This document shows positions 3,120 to 9,427 of a stretch of DNA of 24,830 bases, piece by piece. Where the stretch lies: IMG/VR virus record IMGVR_UViG_3300011114_000333, positions 1-24,830 of that record; one strand, given 5' to 3'. Source of the DNA: a virus. The notes beneath the pieces were generated by a model that made no database searches, was not told the origin of the DNA, and saw only the letters and a program-made list of their open reading frames with translations. A program made the position numbers and the translations under genes. Each line of letters opens with the position of its first letter. The first letter of the stretch is position 1.

Positions 3120-4322
3120 ATGGAAAATTTAGAACAAAAGGCTCAGGAGTTGCTAGACGCAAACAAAGCCAAAACATTAGATGAGGCAAAGAGCATCATC
3201 GCAAACGCAATCAGCGAAGCTACTAAAGCAGTTGATGCAAAGTTAGAAGATGCAGTAAAATCTGCAAATGTACGTATTGACGAAATGGATAAAGCATTGC
3301 TTGAAGCGAAATCAGAAAACAACAGAATTAAGATGGATGTTCAAAGTAAAGCGCCAGTTTCTTTCAATCAGGCATTTTCAACTGCAATGGATGAGAACTC
3401 TGATAACTTAGAGAAATTCAAGAGAAAAGAGATCAAGCAATTTTCAATGGAGTTGAAAACAGTTGGTGATATGTCATTGGCTAACATTACTGATCTTGCA
3501 GCTGCAAACGTTCAGATGCTACCGGGTATCATTCCTGCTGCACCACGTAAGTTGCACATCAGAGCATTACTTCCAACAGGCGTTATGACTACTTCTGCAA
3601 TTCACTACTTACAGGAAACAGGATCAGAGGGATCGGTTGCTGCATGGGCGGATAATTCAGGTACTAAATCTCAAATTGATTATGATTTGACAGAAGAAGT
3701 TGCACCATCTGAGTTTATCGCAGGTTTCTTGCGTATCACTCGCAAGGCTTTAGATGACATCTCTGCCATGCGCTCTTATCTTCAATCTCGTTTACTTGAG
3801 CAGTATTTAGATGCTGAGGATAATCAATTACTTAATGGATCTGGAGTATCTCCAAATCTAGGTGGTTTGATTACCAACGCTGAGGCTTACTCAGGTTTCC
3901 GTACTATTCAGGTAGAGAAATTGCTAGATTCAGTTGCACAAATTGAAAGCAACAATCACTCTGCAAATGGTATCTTGTTAAGTCCAGAGCAGTTCTATGC
4001 TTTGATGCTTACTAGAGGTACTACAAATGATTACACCCTACCAGGCGGAGTTGCAGTTGATCTAGTTAATGGTCAAATGTTCATATCTGGTGTGCCTATC
4101 TTTAAGTCTACTGCAATGAGCGATTCTAAATACTTAGTTGGTGACTGGTCAAAAGGTGCGCAACTATTTGTACGTGAAAATCCGATTGTTAGATTCTTTG
4201 AGGAGGATGGTACAAACGTAAGAGAAAACAAGATTACAGTTCGTGTTGAAGGTCGTATTGCACTACCTATCTACTACACTGATGCATTCGTGACTGGTTC
4301 ATTGAACGCTAATCCAAGCTAG
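3120..4322 (+). CDS. Major capsid protein, HK97 fold, with N-terminal scaffold domain
   Basis: 400 residues. Residues 1 to about 75 are Glu/Lys/Ala-rich and coiled-coil-like, as expected for a delta (scaffold) domain removed by the upstream protease; the junction is probably near residues 72-80. The rest reads as an HK97 gp5-type capsid: LPGIIPAAPRK and IRALLPTG near the E-loop, RITRKALDDISAM along the spine helix, LLNGSG, and the A-domain stretch GVAVDLVNGQMFISGVPIF, closing with VRVEGRIALPI. It is the last gene of the head transcription unit; a strong terminator follows 18 bases after its stop. Confidence 0.95.
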   Translation: MENLEQKAQELLDANKAKTLDEAKSIIANAISEATKAVDAKLEDAVKSANVRIDEMDKALLEAKSENNRIKMDVQSKAPVSFNQAFSTAMDENSDNLEKFKRKEIKQFSMELKTVGDMSLANITDLAAANVQMLPGIIPAAPRKLHIRALLPTGVMTTSAIHYLQETGSEGSVAAWADNSGTKSQIDYDLTEEVAPSEFIAGFLRITRKALDDISAMRSYLQSRLLEQYLDAEDNQLLNGSGVSPNLGGLITNAEAYSGFRTIQVEKLLDSVAQIESNNHSANGILLSPEQFYALMLTRGTTNDYTLPGGVAVDLVNGQMFISGVPIFKSTAMSDSKYLVGDWSKGAQLFVRENPIVRFFEEDGTNVRENKITVRVEGRIALPIYYTDAFVTGSLNANPS

Positions 4323-4340
4323 TTTTTTTGGTTTAATGGG

Positions 4341-4373
4341 AAAAGCCTGTCATTAATTTGGCAGGTTTTTTTT
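4341..4373 (+). terminator. Rho-independent terminator after the capsid gene
   Basis: AAAAGCCTGTC (4341-4351) and GGCAGGTTTT (from 4360) form a hairpin with a six-base GC-containing core (one G-T pair) extended by A-T pairs, with an eight-base loop, and it ends in a run of eight T residues at 4366-4373. It separates the head genes from the glycosylation cassette. Confidence 0.8.
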
Positions 4374-4397
4374 ATTTAATTATGTTAATTAAATAAT

Positions 4398-4405
4398 TAT
4401 ATTTG
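4398..4405 (+). promoter_or_regulatory. Promoter of the glycosyltransferase cassette (-7 element)
   Basis: TATATTTG matches the Bacteroidota -7 consensus TAnnTTTG. A TTTA at 4375-4378 lies 19 bases upstream, at the place where a -33 TTTG is expected (three of four match). The ATG at 4409 follows after only three bases, predicting a leaderless transcript. It directly follows the capsid terminator, so the cassette is its own transcription unit. Confidence 0.7.
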
Positions 4406-4408
4406 CGT

Positions 4409-4585
4409 ATGTTCAAAGCCAACTTTATAGGTCAAGCAGGGTTATACAAAAACCAAGAGTATGTTATCTGTATTGGCGTTATAAATGGATGGATTCATGT
4501 GCGTAGAAAGTGCGGTGCAGGTCGTATGAATTACCCATCAATTTTAGACTTCCTAAGAGATTGGGATTATATTAGAAAACAATGA
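4409..4585 (+). CDS. Small hypothetical protein, first gene of the cassette
   Basis: 58 residues, not recognised. It is mostly predicted beta strand with a basic middle (HVRRKCGAGR) and an aromatic C-terminus (LRDWDYI), which suggests a small SH3-like barrel rather than an enzyme. The open frame could start at a TTG at 4403, but that TTG is inside the promoter octamer, so the ATG at 4409 is used. Its stop overlaps the next start (ATGA), coupling it to the first glycosyltransferase. Function is unknown; because it leads the cassette it could be an accessory or regulatory factor for glycosylation. Confidence 0.65.
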   Translation: MFKANFIGQAGLYKNQEYVICIGVINGWIHVRRKCGAGRMNYPSILDFLRDWDYIRKQ

Positions 4586-5496
4586 GAATATTCCACTTAG
4601 GTTTAATGGTAGCACCACCGCCAAACGATTCAGCACGTAAAGCCTTTATGGCTAACTGCACAGATTACATAGAGTTATCAACAGGCGTAAAGGATGTAAA
4701 CCAAGAAGCGGTTAGGATTGCCAGAGAATTTAGACCGGATATTATCTTTATGCAGATACAGGCTCAAAATATAATCCATATAGAAACTGTCAAAGCTATG
4801 CGAGAAACAGGGGCGTGGATCTGCAACTGGAATGGCGATATAAGAAATGAAACGCCAGGATGGATGATACAAATGGCACCGCATATAGATAAGACTTTGT
4901 TTAGTAATATGAGGGATGTTAGGAACGTAGTGAATGGAGGTTATTTAGAGATAGGCTACGATCCTGAGATTTATAAGCCAGATGGGCAGATAGGTAATTG
5001 CAAAGAGATTTCATTCTTTGGTAATAATTACGGAGGTGATCGCTTTCCGTTAAGCAGGTTAAGAATAGAAATGAATACAATGCTACATAAGCACTTTGGC
5101 GATAAGTATGGCGTTTACGGCAATAACTGGTTTAACGTGGCAGGTAATTATAACCATTCTCAAGCTGAGGAATCAAAAGCATATAGAGCTACAAAGATAG
5201 CAATTAACTTGAGCCATTACGATGAGGATTCATATAGTTCGGATAGGATATACAGGATATTAGGCTCTGGAGCGTTCTGTTTATGCAAAGCCTATCCAAA
5301 TATGCCTTTTATTGATGGTGTTCATGTAAGGACATGGAATAGTCTTTATGATTTAATGGTACTATTAAGATATTATCTGGATGACCATAAAGAGGAACGA
5401 GATTTGATAGCAAAACAAGGCAATAAGTTTGTCAAAGAGAATTATACATTTGATCGAATGGTAAAAAATTTAATAGGTATATATGAGCAAAATTAA
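4582..5496 (+). CDS. CgeB-like GT-B glycosyltransferase
   Basis: 304 residues. The C-terminal half has the CgeB / group-1 glycosyltransferase pattern: an EISFFGNNYGGDR strand-loop (142-154), SQAEESKAYRATKIAINLS (193-211), then SSDRIYRILGSGAFCL (219-234) followed by PFIDGVHV, the region that contacts the sugar-nucleotide donor in this family. The N-terminal half looks like a Rossmann acceptor-binding domain (RPDIIFMQIQ, 51-60; CNWNGDIRN, 81-89). It transfers a sugar from a nucleotide donor to an unknown acceptor in the cytoplasm. It overlaps its upstream neighbour by four bases and its downstream neighbour by 14. Confidence 0.8.
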   Translation: MRIFHLGLMVAPPPNDSARKAFMANCTDYIELSTGVKDVNQEAVRIAREFRPDIIFMQIQAQNIIHIETVKAMRETGAWICNWNGDIRNETPGWMIQMAPHIDKTLFSNMRDVRNVVNGGYLEIGYDPEIYKPDGQIGNCKEISFFGNNYGGDRFPLSRLRIEMNTMLHKHFGDKYGVYGNNWFNVAGNYNHSQAEESKAYRATKIAINLSHYDEDSYSSDRIYRILGSGAFCLCKAYPNMPFIDGVHVRTWNSLYDLMVLLRYYLDDHKEERDLIAKQGNKFVKENYTFDRMVKNLIGIYEQN

Positions 5497-6232
5497 AGTT
5501 TTAGGTTTTATGACTATTCATTATGCAGGGGATTACTTGCGTGAAGCTCTTATGTCGGTTGTAGATCATGTAGATAAAATGGTTATAGCTTATAGCATGA
5601 TGCCAAGTCAAGGACATGGAACGCTATTGCAATGTCCAGATTCAGAGGGTTATATTTATAGTATTTGCCAAGACGTTTTAAAAGATAAATTAATCTGGGA
5701 CCGAGCCGAAAGGTATGGAGCTGAAAGTGAGCATAGGGCGGTTAAATATAAATACTCAGATGGCTATGATTTGGTATTGACAGTAGATTCAGATGAGGTT
5801 TATAAATCAGATGAGTTGCAGAAGTCATTTGAGTATGCTTATTGGGGCATAGATAGATTTTATGGCATTGATGGCTTTGTTAATTTTTGGCGTTCTTTTA
5901 ACTATGCTTGTTATGATGGATTCAGACCGATTAGATTAGAAAACCTGCACAGAAAAGAACATACTCAAGATTTAAAGTTAAAGCAGACTATCTATCATTT
6001 TAGCACCTGTCAACCTCAACCTATTATGGCTTATAAATATAATGTATTTGGTCATGCCCACGAAGTGCGCAAAGACTGGCTAAAAAAATGTTACTATAAA
6101 TGGAAACCCGAAAATCAGTTTGATGATGTGCATTGCGTTGCGTTAAATCTATGGAATCCTGTGCCATTTGATAAATCGGTATTACCTAGCTATTTAAAGA
6201 GCCATCATAATTATAACAAAGAGTTAGTATGA
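5483..6232 (+). CDS. GT-A (family 2-like) glycosyltransferase with DxD motif
   Basis: 249 residues. The N-terminus (KVLGFMTIHYAGDYLREAL, then VDKMVIAYS) is the nucleotide-binding beta-alpha unit of GT-A enzymes, and LTVDSDEVYKSDEL contains the metal-binding DxD motif at residues 102-104. Such enzymes move a sugar from a UDP-, GDP- or TDP-sugar to an acceptor using a divalent metal. The C-terminal half is rich in His, Tyr and Trp and resembles family-2-like proteins that recruit cell-surface glycans. It ends in an ATGA overlap with the next gene. Donor and acceptor cannot be read from the sequence. Confidence 0.75.
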   Translation: MSKIKVLGFMTIHYAGDYLREALMSVVDHVDKMVIAYSMMPSQGHGTLLQCPDSEGYIYSICQDVLKDKLIWDRAERYGAESEHRAVKYKYSDGYDLVLTVDSDEVYKSDELQKSFEYAYWGIDRFYGIDGFVNFWRSFNYACYDGFRPIRLENLHRKEHTQDLKLKQTIYHFSTCQPQPIMAYKYNVFGHAHEVRKDWLKKCYYKWKPENQFDDVHCVALNLWNPVPFDKSVLPSYLKSHHNYNKELV

Positions 6233-6795
6233 ATGCAGCTATAATAGTAGATGATCGTGAAGATGTGGCTCAGGAAGCAATCGAAAGGCATAAAAGGTTT
6301 ATACCCAAATCATGGGATTTGCTACATATTCAACCGCCTTATGCCGGAGGGATTTACTATATAAAAACTCCAAGAGAATATAACTCTATATTGACTAATC
6401 CTAACTTTTGGCGAGGCTTAAAATATGATAGGGTGTTAGTTTTTCAGCATGATTCTGGATTATTGAAAGAGGGTATTGAGCATTTTCTGGAATGGGATTT
6501 TATCGGATCGTGGATTAAAAATATACCGGGTTGCTTGAATGGAGGTCTAAGCATTCGCAATCCTGAGCTGATGTATGAAATTTGCTCAAACCATCCATAT
6601 AAAGGCATGGCAGTAGATGGTAACGAAGATATTTACTTTTGTAACAAGATGCGAGAGTTAGGCTATAAGTTACCTGATAAGATAACTTGCAATAAGTTTG
6701 CCGTAGAAACAGAATTTGAATATGGTTCAGTAGGTTATCATGCAATAGATAAATACCATAAAAATTATAATCTTTTACTAAATCAATATGATTGA
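6229..6795 (+). CDS. DUF5672 family protein (GT-A-like)
   Basis: 188 residues. It carries the ordered motifs of the DUF5672 family: VLVFQHDSGLL (69-79), DFIGSW (90-95), NGGLSIRNPELM (104-115), NEDIYFCNKM (132-141) and a late FAVETEF. The family has a GT-A-like core and occurs with glycan-synthesis genes, so it is a probable glycosyltransferase; this is family knowledge, not direct proof here. The HD pair in FQHDS would occupy the metal-site position. It overlaps the previous gene by four bases and the methyltransferase gene by eight. Confidence 0.75.
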   Translation: MNAAIIVDDREDVAQEAIERHKRFIPKSWDLLHIQPPYAGGIYYIKTPREYNSILTNPNFWRGLKYDRVLVFQHDSGLLKEGIEHFLEWDFIGSWIKNIPGCLNGGLSIRNPELMYEICSNHPYKGMAVDGNEDIYFCNKMRELGYKLPDKITCNKFAVETEFEYGSVGYHAIDKYHKNYNLLLNQYD

Positions 6796-7342
6796 TAAAA
6801 TATTAAAAGTAACGGCAGAGGAGTTAAACCAGATTAATCTGTCTAAGTATTTAAAGAGTACGGATGATCTGGGATTTCCTAAAGGTTGGTTTTATATGGA
6901 TGCAGGGATTGAGCATTACAGGTTACTAGCTTTTATCAGTAAGTTATACAATGGAGTTACTCTGTTAGATATTGGAAGCTATCAGGGAAGCTCAGCCATT
7001 GCCTTATCGTTTAATAAAAAGAATAAGGTTATCAGCTATGACATAGAGCATCAGCCAGAGATAGCCGATATTAAAATACCGAACATAGAATTTATCAAAG
7101 GTAATGTATTGATGCATGAGATTTCAGCTCCATTTATTATGCTAGATACTTTTCACGATGGCGAGTTTGAGCAGGAGTTTACAGATCATTTGCTAAAGAT
7201 TAAATATAAAGGTTTGGTTATGTTTGATGACATCCATCTAAACAATGAGATGAGTAATTTCTGGAATGGATTAAAAAACGAAAAATATGATTTAACAGAG
7301 ATAGGGCATCATACAGGTACAGGCATAGCAATTTATGGTTAA
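6788..7342 (+). CDS. Class I SAM-dependent methyltransferase (Methyltransf_24-like)
   Basis: 184 residues. SAM-binding motif I is LLDIGSYQGSSAIAL (59-73); the acidic residue that holds the SAM ribose is Asp85 in ISYDIE; LDTFHDGEFEQEFTDHLL and GLVMFDDIHLN (142-152) are characteristic of the Methyltransf_24 / cephalosporin-hydroxylase-like group, which often methylates sugars. Within a run of glycosyltransferases an O-methyl cap on a glycan is the most likely activity; no DNA target-recognition region is visible, so a DNA methylase is unlikely. It overlaps both neighbours by eight bases. Confidence 0.8.
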   Translation: MIDKILKVTAEELNQINLSKYLKSTDDLGFPKGWFYMDAGIEHYRLLAFISKLYNGVTLLDIGSYQGSSAIALSFNKKNKVISYDIEHQPEIADIKIPNIEFIKGNVLMHEISAPFIMLDTFHDGEFEQEFTDHLLKIKYKGLVMFDDIHLNNEMSNFWNGLKNEKYDLTEIGHHTGTGIAIYG

Positions 7343-7940
7343 TCTTTTTACTTCGATATATACGGATAAAAGCGCAGTTAGGCAAAAGGAATTAATCTAT
7401 TGCTTAAATAAAAACATAGATAATCCTCATATTAATAAAATTTATTTGTTTGTTGATGGATTTGTAGAGTTGCCAAAAAATGACAAATTAATTACAATAG
7501 AATTTCAGCGACCTACATACAGGGACTTTTTTAACCTTATTGATAGGACCGTAACGTCTAGAGAGGACATTTCAATAGTCGCAAATACGGATATTTATTT
7601 TAACAATACGCTGAGTAACTTAAGTTTATATGAAAGGCAATGCATAGCGTTAAGCAGATGGGATGATAAGATAGGAGGTTTAAAATTACACAATGAGCGG
7701 TTTAGTCAAGATGTATGGGTATTTAGAGGCAAGATTCGAAATGTTAATTTCTGTGACTTTTATTTAGGCATACCGGGTTGCGATAATAGGATAGCGTATG
7801 AGTTGCATAGCGCAGGTTACGCACTCTATAATCCTGCTAGTCGAATACAAGCTATTCATTACCATAGAAGCAATCTGCATAATTACGATGGCAGAACATT
7901 GAAGATACAAAGACCTTATCTGTTTATACCTGTTACATGA
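7335..7940 (+). CDS. Compact GT-A-like glycosyltransferase candidate
   Basis: 201 residues. The pattern fits small GT-A-like proteins found in viruses and glycan loci: IVANTDIYFNNTL (81-93) at the place of the DxD motif, then SQDVWVFRG (124-132), LGIPGCDNRIA (144-154), and a C-terminal IHYHRSN with two His residues. The N-terminus (FTSIYTDKSAVRQKELIYCL) has the usual first strand and helix. No formal family is certain to me. The ATGA overlap with the following glycosyltransferase and the eight-base overlap upstream tie it to the cassette. Reaction unknown. Confidence 0.62.
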   Translation: MVNLFTSIYTDKSAVRQKELIYCLNKNIDNPHINKIYLFVDGFVELPKNDKLITIEFQRPTYRDFFNLIDRTVTSREDISIVANTDIYFNNTLSNLSLYERQCIALSRWDDKIGGLKLHNERFSQDVWVFRGKIRNVNFCDFYLGIPGCDNRIAYELHSAGYALYNPASRIQAIHYHRSNLHNYDGRTLKIQRPYLFIPVT

Positions 7941-8881
7941 AAATCCTATTAAGTCCAGGCATATACTTACCTCATCAAAGAGCAGGATCTGAAATTTATC
8001 TGCATAGGGTTGTTAAATACTTAATGAACAAAGGGCATCAAGTTAAGGCGGTTACTAGATGCCCTGAGAATTACAAGTATGAGGGCATACAGGTTTACAA
8101 GGCTAAAGACAATTACAAGCAATGCCATAATGATTTATGGGACTGGGCAGATTTGGTTTTCTGTCAACTGTCTGGGACTTACTACGCAATGAACAAACAG
8201 AGGCTAAAAGCTAAAAAGGTAATTAACTTTGCGCATAATAACGTAGGTTATCCACAGGTAAATATTAGACCGAATGTGTACACAGTTTATAACTGCGAAA
8301 ATACAAAGCGAGAATTAAACTATAAGCAGGAAACCTACACTTTGTACGCACCAATTAATTACAGGGATTACTCAACAGATAGACCAGAGGCTGAGTACGT
8401 GACGCTGATAAACCATAACGAAAACAAAGGAGGTCAGATATTAATTGAGATAGCAAAGCGAATGCCTAAAACAAAGTTCATGGCGGTGCAAGGTGGTTAC
8501 TATCACCAGATCAAGGATGAAAAAGTTAGGAATATAAAATACGTTCCTTTAATTGATGATGTGCGTAAATATCTGGCTATGACTAGAGTGCTGATAGCAC
8601 CATCAGAGTATGAAAGTTATGGTATGGCTCAAATAGAAGCCTTGTGTTGCAATATTCCTGTTATCTGTTCAGATATACTAGGTTTCAGAGATAGTGTCTC
8701 AGATGCAGGGATATTCGTCAATAGGAATGATATACAAGGTTGGATTGATGCTATTACTAATATTGATACTATACAGACTAAGAAAACGCCTCTGGAAAGA
8801 GCAAAAGAATTAGATCCTATTAAGGAATTAGTTAAGTTTGAAAATTGGTTAAATAAAATTAGTAATTTAGCGATTATATAA
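7937..8881 (+). CDS. GT-B glycosyltransferase, GT4-like
   Basis: 314 residues. The N-terminus has the GT4 pattern (ILLSPGIYLPHQRAGSEIYL, with the Gly-Ser loop at 17-18). NHNENKGGQILIEIAKRMP (159-177) opens the second Rossmann domain, and the donor-site E-x7-E motif is ESYGMAQIE (Glu226 to Glu234), followed by PVICSDILGFRD. This is a retaining sugar transferase using a nucleotide sugar. It is shorter than typical GT4 enzymes (about 350-400 residues), mainly in the acceptor domain, as is common for phage copies. It ends the cassette; the head-tail connector gene starts 45 bases later. Confidence 0.88.
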   Translation: MKILLSPGIYLPHQRAGSEIYLHRVVKYLMNKGHQVKAVTRCPENYKYEGIQVYKAKDNYKQCHNDLWDWADLVFCQLSGTYYAMNKQRLKAKKVINFAHNNVGYPQVNIRPNVYTVYNCENTKRELNYKQETYTLYAPINYRDYSTDRPEAEYVTLINHNENKGGQILIEIAKRMPKTKFMAVQGGYYHQIKDEKVRNIKYVPLIDDVRKYLAMTRVLIAPSEYESYGMAQIEALCCNIPVICSDILGFRDSVSDAGIFVNRNDIQGWIDAITNIDTIQTKKTPLERAKELDPIKELVKFENWLNKISNLAII

Positions 8882-8926
8882 TGGAAAAAAAAGAGTATCT
8901 AAAACAACCTTTTAAACCTAAAGAGA

Positions 8927-9427
8927 ATGGACCAGTTAAATGTAGTGAGCCTAGCGGATGCAAAGATGTACCTAAGACTAGACCTAGACTATACAATAGA
9001 AGATGGCTTAATTACATCATTGATAAAATCTGCGGTAAATCAAGCTGAACAATTTACGCTACAAGTATTATGGCAAAGGCAACTAAGTTTAATTACGCCT
9101 GTTTCTGGTGCGGTTAAAATATATGAGTACCCTTTGATTTCGATTGAAACTGTTGTAGATCCTGATATGGATGTGCTGACTTTTGAAACAATCGAAACGC
9201 AAGGCTTTACAGAGGTTATATCAGATACGGCAGGATTTAATACTGTTACATTTGTTGCAGGTTATGGATGGAATTATGAGGGTGGCTCAGATGTGCCAGA
9301 TGATATTGAAACGGCGATAAAAGAAATGATAGCGTATTATTATGAAAATAGAGATAATCCGGTTGTCGGGATGCCTACGATTGCAACTCTTTTACTATCG
9401 CCTTACAGACGCATAACTCTATTCTAA
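8927..9427 (+). CDS. Head-tail connector protein (HK97 gp6-like)
   Basis: 166 residues. The N-terminus has the gp6-like pattern SLADAKMYLRLDLDYTIEDG followed by LITSLIKSAVNQAEQFT, an all-helical fold that forms a ring under the portal. The C-terminus, with AIKEMIAYYYENRDNP, is also typical. It restarts the morphogenesis order that the sugar cassette interrupts. AAAGAG just before the ATG can serve as a weak ribosome binding site. Its stop overlaps the next start (TAATG). Confidence 0.85.
   Translation: MDQLNVVSLADAKMYLRLDLDYTIEDGLITSLIKSAVNQAEQFTLQVLWQRQLSLITPVSGAVKIYEYPLISIETVVDPDMDVLTFETIETQGFTEVISDTAGFNTVTFVAGYGWNYEGGSDVPDDIETAIKEMIAYYYENRDNPVVGMPTIATLLLSPYRRITLF

Follow-up and report, generated by a model that had tools for sequence, protein, structure and literature searches.

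A capsid-adjacent cassette of five probable glycosyltransferases with an exchangeable methyltransferase slot in an environmental phage lineage

What are glycosyltransferases doing in the middle of a phage head operon, and on what do they act? The question is raised by the virus record IMGVR_UViG_3300011114_000333, a complete IMG/VR record of 24,830 bases, within which the locus was studied (the whole stretch is hereafter called the window). Between the genes for the major capsid protein (MCP) and the head–tail connector lies a block of seven genes (4409–8881, all on the plus strand) that encodes a protein of 58–60 amino acids (g0), five probable glycosyltransferases (GT1, GT2, GT3, GT4c and GT5) and one S-adenosylmethionine (SAM) methyltransferase (MT). 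The original prediction, made from the letters of the window, had described a seven-gene glycosylation and methylation cassette reaching from capsid to connector, and this block is real. Few cases of virion glycosylation in tailed phages have been documented; in the present one an entire lineage, represented by dozens of environmental contigs, seemingly depends on five capsid-adjacent glycosyltransferases (GTs) and freely swaps the enzyme that may decorate their product.

Scans of IMG/VR returned 60 loci encoding GT1, 90 encoding GT2, 130 encoding GT4c and 101 encoding the MCP; these are metagenomic contigs, often fragments, and the counts given here denote distinct loci found by these queries and not prevalence. 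In all 30 distinct loci that span MCP to connector the five GT genes are present in identical order. Ratios of non-synonymous to synonymous substitution (dN/dS), calculated against five relatives, fall at about 0.04–0.11 for the cassette genes, which equals the range for portal, protease and MCP, and because purifying selection on the cassette matches that on the head genes it behaves as a core component of the phage. The neighbourhood may nevertheless not be inherited as one piece: some relatives have an MCP 97% identical to that of the window, yet their GT1 and connector are each only 66% identical, which points to recombination near the boundary between MCP and cassette.

The space between GT3 and GT4c follows different rules. 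Across 53 distinct loci this slot holds an MT gene in 29 (one with an added N6 methylase gene) and is empty in 19, the remainder carrying a hexapeptide acetyltransferase (two loci), a GP88 gene (two) or an unassigned small open reading frame (ORF; one). In the deep relative L211 this position is taken by an additional Glyco_trans_1_2 enzyme together with an acetyltransferase, and in L205 by an acetyltransferase. When mapped by parsimony onto a tree of GT4c, MT presence switches 10 times, at least five of them on strongly supported branches. The MT is thus optional and exchangeable, and the ‘methyl-capped’ oligosaccharide that had been proposed does not hold as a fixed property, given that 24 of the 53 loci lack the MT and a few have an acetyltransferase or other gene in its stead. 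Nor is there support for the suggestion that the gene order is the order of sugar addition; with the variable slot sitting mid-array, gene order need not equal addition order. The simplest reading of a methyl- or acetyl-transferring enzyme set into an array of GTs is the decoration of one sugar of a glycan, and the alternation of the MT with acetyltransferases and, in L211, with an added GT is what such decoration would lead one to expect.

That the cassette has been inserted where the MCP normally adjoins the connector, as originally proposed, is borne out by relatives without it. One of these, L230, is a 36.6-kb contig whose synteny with the window extends from the portal to the tail gene that follows the tape measure (protease 56% and MCP 38% identical), and its gap between MCP and connector holds one ORF of 93 amino acids; no GT appears among the Pfam families listed for it (25 of 29), and a direct search with PF13524 found none. 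In the closest isolates, the Cellulophaga phages phi17:1 and phi18:1 (MCP 33% identical), and in several contigs of their group, the connector stands directly 3′ of the MCP. The connector of the window aligns with that of phi17:1 at 28% identity. Most relatives of the Cellulophaga type have MCP and connector side by side; in two contigs of the group (L225 and L227) the gap is occupied by several small ORFs, none of them a GT.

How firmly can the individual enzymes be assigned? Four to five probable GTs of different folds had been proposed; we count five, three recognised by Pfam (one of these through a domain of unknown function, DUF5672) and two by fold alone, so that phage-encoded GTs, the hallmark of known virion-glycosylation systems, are present in this sense. 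GT1 (4582–5496; 304 amino acids) is a GT-B-type enzyme that matches Glyco_trans_1_2 (6e-13; alignment of 22 relatives), and GT5 (7937–8881; 314 amino acids) is a GT-B enzyme of the GT4 family (Glyco_trans_1_4, 2.2e-15). GT3 (6229–6795; 188 amino acids) belongs to DUF5672 (2.6e-24; 86.2 bits against a cut-off of 24.4) and has the invariant motifs QHDSGLL and NGGLS; we infer that it is a glycosyltransferase, probably a compact GT-A. GT2 (5483–6232; 249 amino acids) and GT4c (7335–7940; 201 amino acids) match no Pfam family. GT2 carries a D102-S-D104-E motif that is invariant in 22 of 22 aligned sequences. Its AlphaFold2 model has a mean predicted local distance difference test (pLDDT) score of 60, with the first 120 residues mostly at 70–96, and this confident N-terminal part resembles GT-A enzymes, the best Foldseek matches being TarS (4.9e-5), SunS, TarP and SpsA. 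GT4c has an invariant N84..D86-I-Y-F motif, and its model (pLDDT 72) gives weak Foldseek matches to TarI/IspD and to GT-A enzymes. On these models both are probable GT-A-type glycosyltransferases, without detectable sequence relation to each other. Nothing useful came from searching PDB sequences with profiles of GT1, GT2 and GT4c; the GT1 matches were response regulators, a Rossmann-like coincidence.

The MT (6788–7342; 184 amino acids) combines an invariant class I SAM-binding motif I of the type LLDIGSYQGSSAIAL with similarity to O-methyltransferases (profile match to 3tr6, 4e-4; weak methyltransferase matches in Pfam below the cut-offs), and is a probable sugar O-methyltransferase. Its homologues in Synechococcus phages are set among nucleotide-sugar epimerase and GT genes; a GT4c relative in phage S-SKS1 likewise adjoins a nucleotide-sugar epimerase, and cellular relatives of GT4c lie in polysaccharide clusters of one Chitinophagaceae and one Geobacteraceae genome. 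These two were the cellular homologues returned by a scan of genome contigs with GT4c, which found no prophage. The first gene, g0 (4409–4585), encodes 58 amino acids from the likelier start, the ATG at 4409, or 60 from the TTG at 4403. Homologues occupy the equivalent place in most relatives, and g0 has no match in Pfam, PHROG, NCBIfam or the phage collection; the last of these searches gave no support to the idea that it is widespread among phages. Neighbouring genes of the block overlap by 4, 14, 4, 8, 8 and 4 bases in turn, which is compatible with the translational coupling that had been claimed, but such overlaps are no proof of it. An ORF of 55 amino acids at 8881–9048, which runs into the connector gene in a different frame, was left out of the gene count. 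The flanks are clear: on the left the HK97-type MCP (3120–4322, plus strand; Phage_capsid 1.4e-25, PHROG major head protein 4.7e-42), itself a candidate acceptor, and on the right the connector (8927–9427, plus strand; Phage_connect_1 1.4e-8, PHROG head–tail adaptor 5e-16).

The edge of the block has a feature that the original prediction, which saw the block itself, had missed. Between MCP and cassette lies a predicted intrinsic terminator (4335–4376, plus strand; −16.1 kcal/mol, z −5.6), equalled in stability by none of 200 shuffles. Each of the 33 distinct short junctions inspected contains a T-run, and where junctions of relatives were aligned (row L007 being left out) the hairpin can be seen, its stem kept and its loop sequence varying. 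In the window it is followed by the box TATATTTG (4398–4405, plus strand), three nucleotides 5′ of the ATG at 4409, which fits the Bacteroidota −7 consensus TAnnTTTG and is a predicted sigma-A-type −7 element. The box is found in 26 of the 33 junctions, and just 5′ of the start codon whenever the gap measures 75–103 nucleotides. The motif is common across the window (55 copies in 1–24,830 against 33 expected from shuffles), and because it is so frequent only its position-specific conservation supports the box. Several copies are intergenic, for example at 2397 and 10,290. A scan for sigma-70-type promoters was dropped, as it gave fewer sites than expected by chance. Judged from these conserved elements, the cassette probably has its own promoter, and transcription at full capsid level probably stops before it.

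In a few relatives tRNA-like sequences lie between MCP and cassette (L055:9647–9762, L039:3227–3331 and the MCP–g0 gap of L087). Their acceptor, D and T arms are intact and the anticodon region is abnormal. The Rfam tRNA model scores the first at 39.3 bits and the second at 22.8, under the gathering score, the third having been recognised by eye only; ARAGORN calls neither the L055 nor the L039 sequence.

The remainder of the window, as read from ORFs and Pfam, encodes portal, MuF, protease, tail genes and tape measure, besides a tail fibre with an S74 chaperone domain, an M15 peptidase and an ERF recombinase. The similarity of the tape measure to those of Flavobacterium, Bacteroides and Cellulophaga phages, the TAnnTTTG box and the family content suggest a Bacteroidota host. 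For four long relatives we inspected the Pfam families of the encoded ORFs; such tables list the 25 best-populated families, and Pfam cut-offs miss divergent enzymes. Among the families listed there is no integrase, no base-hypermodifying or hydroxylated-base enzyme and, for the non-structural ORFs, no enzyme of sugar-nucleotide synthesis, which makes host sugar-nucleotide pools, as first suggested, the likely source of substrate. One of the four has a 127-bp terminal repeat. The lineage is probably siphovirus-like and virulent.

What, then, would the cassette make? The reading that we favour, with somewhat better than an even chance of being right, is the sequential glycosylation of a virion protein in the cytoplasm, from host sugar nucleotides and with an exchangeable methyl or acetyl decoration. 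It is favoured by the soluble character of the enzymes, by the linkage to the capsid gene and by the lack of integrase, sugar-nucleotide and base-hypermodification families among those listed. We infer the activities, the acceptor, the sequential action and the purpose along the following lines. Late in infection the five soluble GTs would draw nucleotide sugars from host pools. One of them would attach a sugar to a side chain of a virion protein encoded in the same operon, the MCP and tail proteins being the likeliest choices, and the others would lengthen this start into a short oligosaccharide. Some members of the lineage would also have one sugar decorated by the exchangeable enzyme (in the window the MT, in others an acetyltransferase or additional GT), and related phages with different slot enzymes would consequently show different surface glycans. 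With a terminator and a promoter-like box of their own, these catalytic enzymes need not reach the level of the capsid protein. The purpose may be to shield the virion or to tune adsorption. A more specific version, in which the invariant five-GT core builds a common virion oligosaccharide and swaps in the middle slot produce antigenic-type-like virion surfaces, making the cassette a modular capsid-linked writer, is tentative and would not surprise us if it failed.

Several points weigh against virion glycosylation. The place beside the MCP is circumstantial, since morons of late operons can act elsewhere, and the MCP and the tail proteins are candidate acceptors only. GT2 and GT4c are assigned by fold, using models whose confidence is low to moderate, and the family of GT3 is formally of unknown function. 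No homologue of the enzymes of phages known to glycosylate their virions was found, the five GTs having no mycobacteriophage match in the phage collection, and the nearest homologues in cells and cyanophages appear, if anything, to act in surface-polysaccharide clusters. This last point favours the main rival, namely that the enzymes alter the lipopolysaccharide (LPS) or capsule of the infected cell and thereby block superinfection or keep progeny from sticking to debris: GT4c and the MT have their closest homologues, in cells and in cyanophages, within clusters for polysaccharides or nucleotide sugars, and LPS modification is the function that the authors named first for the GT of phi18:1 (PMC11946311). 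Against it, no membrane-like (TM-like) segment is predicted in any cassette protein, and there is neither a flippase nor a polytopic or membrane-anchored partner. The membrane flippase and polytopic GT of a serotype-converting gtr cluster (GtrA/GtrB/Gtr) are accordingly lacking. Genes placed in the head operon should be expressed late, which together with the lack of an integrase among the families listed for four relatives makes lysogenic conversion unlikely. For want of membrane helices, and in view of the head-operon position, cytoplasmic protein glycosylation fits better than lipid-linked envelope modification, and we grant the envelope reading a minority chance that still deserves weight.

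A target outside virion and envelope, such as a small molecule, a nucleotide or another host protein (an inactivated defence signal, for instance), finds some encouragement in a weaker Pfam match of GT5 to GT4-conflict (4.9e-6) and in one structural relative, a tetrahydrobiopterin glucosyltransferase. Five co-conserved GTs and an exchangeable methyl or acetyl step suggest an oligosaccharide and not a single transfer, however, and we consider such a target improbable. GTs are also known to add sugars to hydroxylated bases of phage DNA against restriction, a role held in T-even and other phages according to PMC12619734 and its reference Pyle 2024. In the four relatives, however, the listed families include no hydroxymethylase, no thymidylate-synthase-like, TET/JBP or other hypermodification enzyme, and the cassette genes are grouped with head genes. 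To our knowledge DNA glycosylation employs fewer enzymes than five GTs and a sugar-type MT, which counts further against a reading that we hold to be unlikely. Finally, the genes might form no functional unit and be a chance pile-up of morons at a recombination hot spot, for the MCP–GT1 gap, the GT2–GT3 gap and the MT slot all gather accessory genes. That the GTs are unvarying in 30 of 30 loci, under strong purifying selection and recurrent in dozens of independent contigs makes this hardly credible.

Virion glycosylation, the favoured reading, has parallels of varying closeness. The equivalent that the original prediction could not name in a Bacteroidota phage exists at least in part: phi18:1, phi17:1 and their genus have a GT in the structural module (PMC11946311), conserved in the genus and of unassigned function, so the statement was too strong. 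In some members of the Cellulophaga group a different pair of MT and GT genes lies 5′ of the protease. As in the cassette, the pair sits in the head module of a phage of a Bacteroidota host and is kept across the genus; unlike it, the pair includes a single GT gene, of the family TOD1_MUCI70, and is placed between MuF and protease. The methyltransferase of phi18:1 was taken for a DNA methylase (PMC11946311), and its counterpart in phi17:1 falls into Methyltransf_24, a Pfam assignment that makes a sugar methyltransferase at least as likely. The annotated DNA methylase and putative glycosyltransferase of phi17:1 (gp41–gp42; L170:2265–3937) may accordingly be a sugar methyltransferase and a GT (Methyltransf_24 and TOD1_MUCI70), in a phage that is available in culture. 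The MT of the window has no significant similarity to gp41, and the pair is best called an analogue and not a demonstrated homologue. The Streptomyces phage TurkishDelight offers a homologue of GT5 (gp20; 25% identity, hhalign 5e-24), likewise lying between MCP and a tail gene, that of the major tail protein, but as a lone gene with two GT4 domains and without a multi-GT cassette. Taken together, the Cellulophaga pair and gp20 indicate from their sequences and positions that phage head modules have acquired sugar enzymes on more than one occasion and in different places. Synechococcus phages S-SSM7, Sf-FS3 and S-SKS1 encode homologues of the MT (38% and 36%) and GT4c (35%); their clusters, unlike the cassette, include epimerases and dehydrogenases and, in the stretches seen, do not stand beside an MCP.

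The chlorovirus PBCV-1 offers another parallel: its capsid glycan is made by virus-coded GTs and sugar O-methyltransferases (A064R, A061L, A111/114R), and antigenic variants arise when a GT or MT domain is lost (PMC9614988). GT4c shows a weak fold match to A064R-D1 (2p72). The likeness is one without demonstrated sequence homology; PBCV-1 is a eukaryotic virus with multidomain proteins, an N-glycan and an unrelated type of capsid protein. The mycobacteriophages Che8 and Rita also encode GTs, and glycans have been proposed or demonstrated on subunits of their capsid and tail tube (Freeman et al. 2023, as cited in PMC11256854 and PMC12619734). In Maravista, an F1 relative of these two, the GT genes are instead found close to the 3′ end of the genome, away from the MCP. 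A search of the phage collection gave no mycobacteriophage match for any of the five GTs, and the cassette may therefore work like the Che8-type mycobacteriophage system but is not classed as a member of it. We know of no exchangeable MT or acetyltransferase slot in that system. If the acceptor is the virion, the natural variants with and without a methyl or acetyl step would test what phage sugar coats are for, adsorption, defence evasion, grazing and stability being the candidate purposes.

Other insertions were seen within and beside the array. About 18 loci (for example L040:208–1029) have a PAPS-reductase-like gene (PF01507, 2.6e-10) between MCP and GT1, an insertion that is common but optional. 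The GT2–GT3 gap holds a small conserved ORF, mostly of 54 amino acids, in 34 loci (for example L053:6422–6652), belonging to many of the more distant relatives, and in six other loci a different ORF of 58–71 amino acids with weak CarG-like similarity. An N6/N4 DNA methylase ORF lies between GT4c and GT5 in L009, with a similar ORF in L013, and a GIY-YIG endonuclease ORF is inserted within the cassette of L205 (L205:3204–3800).

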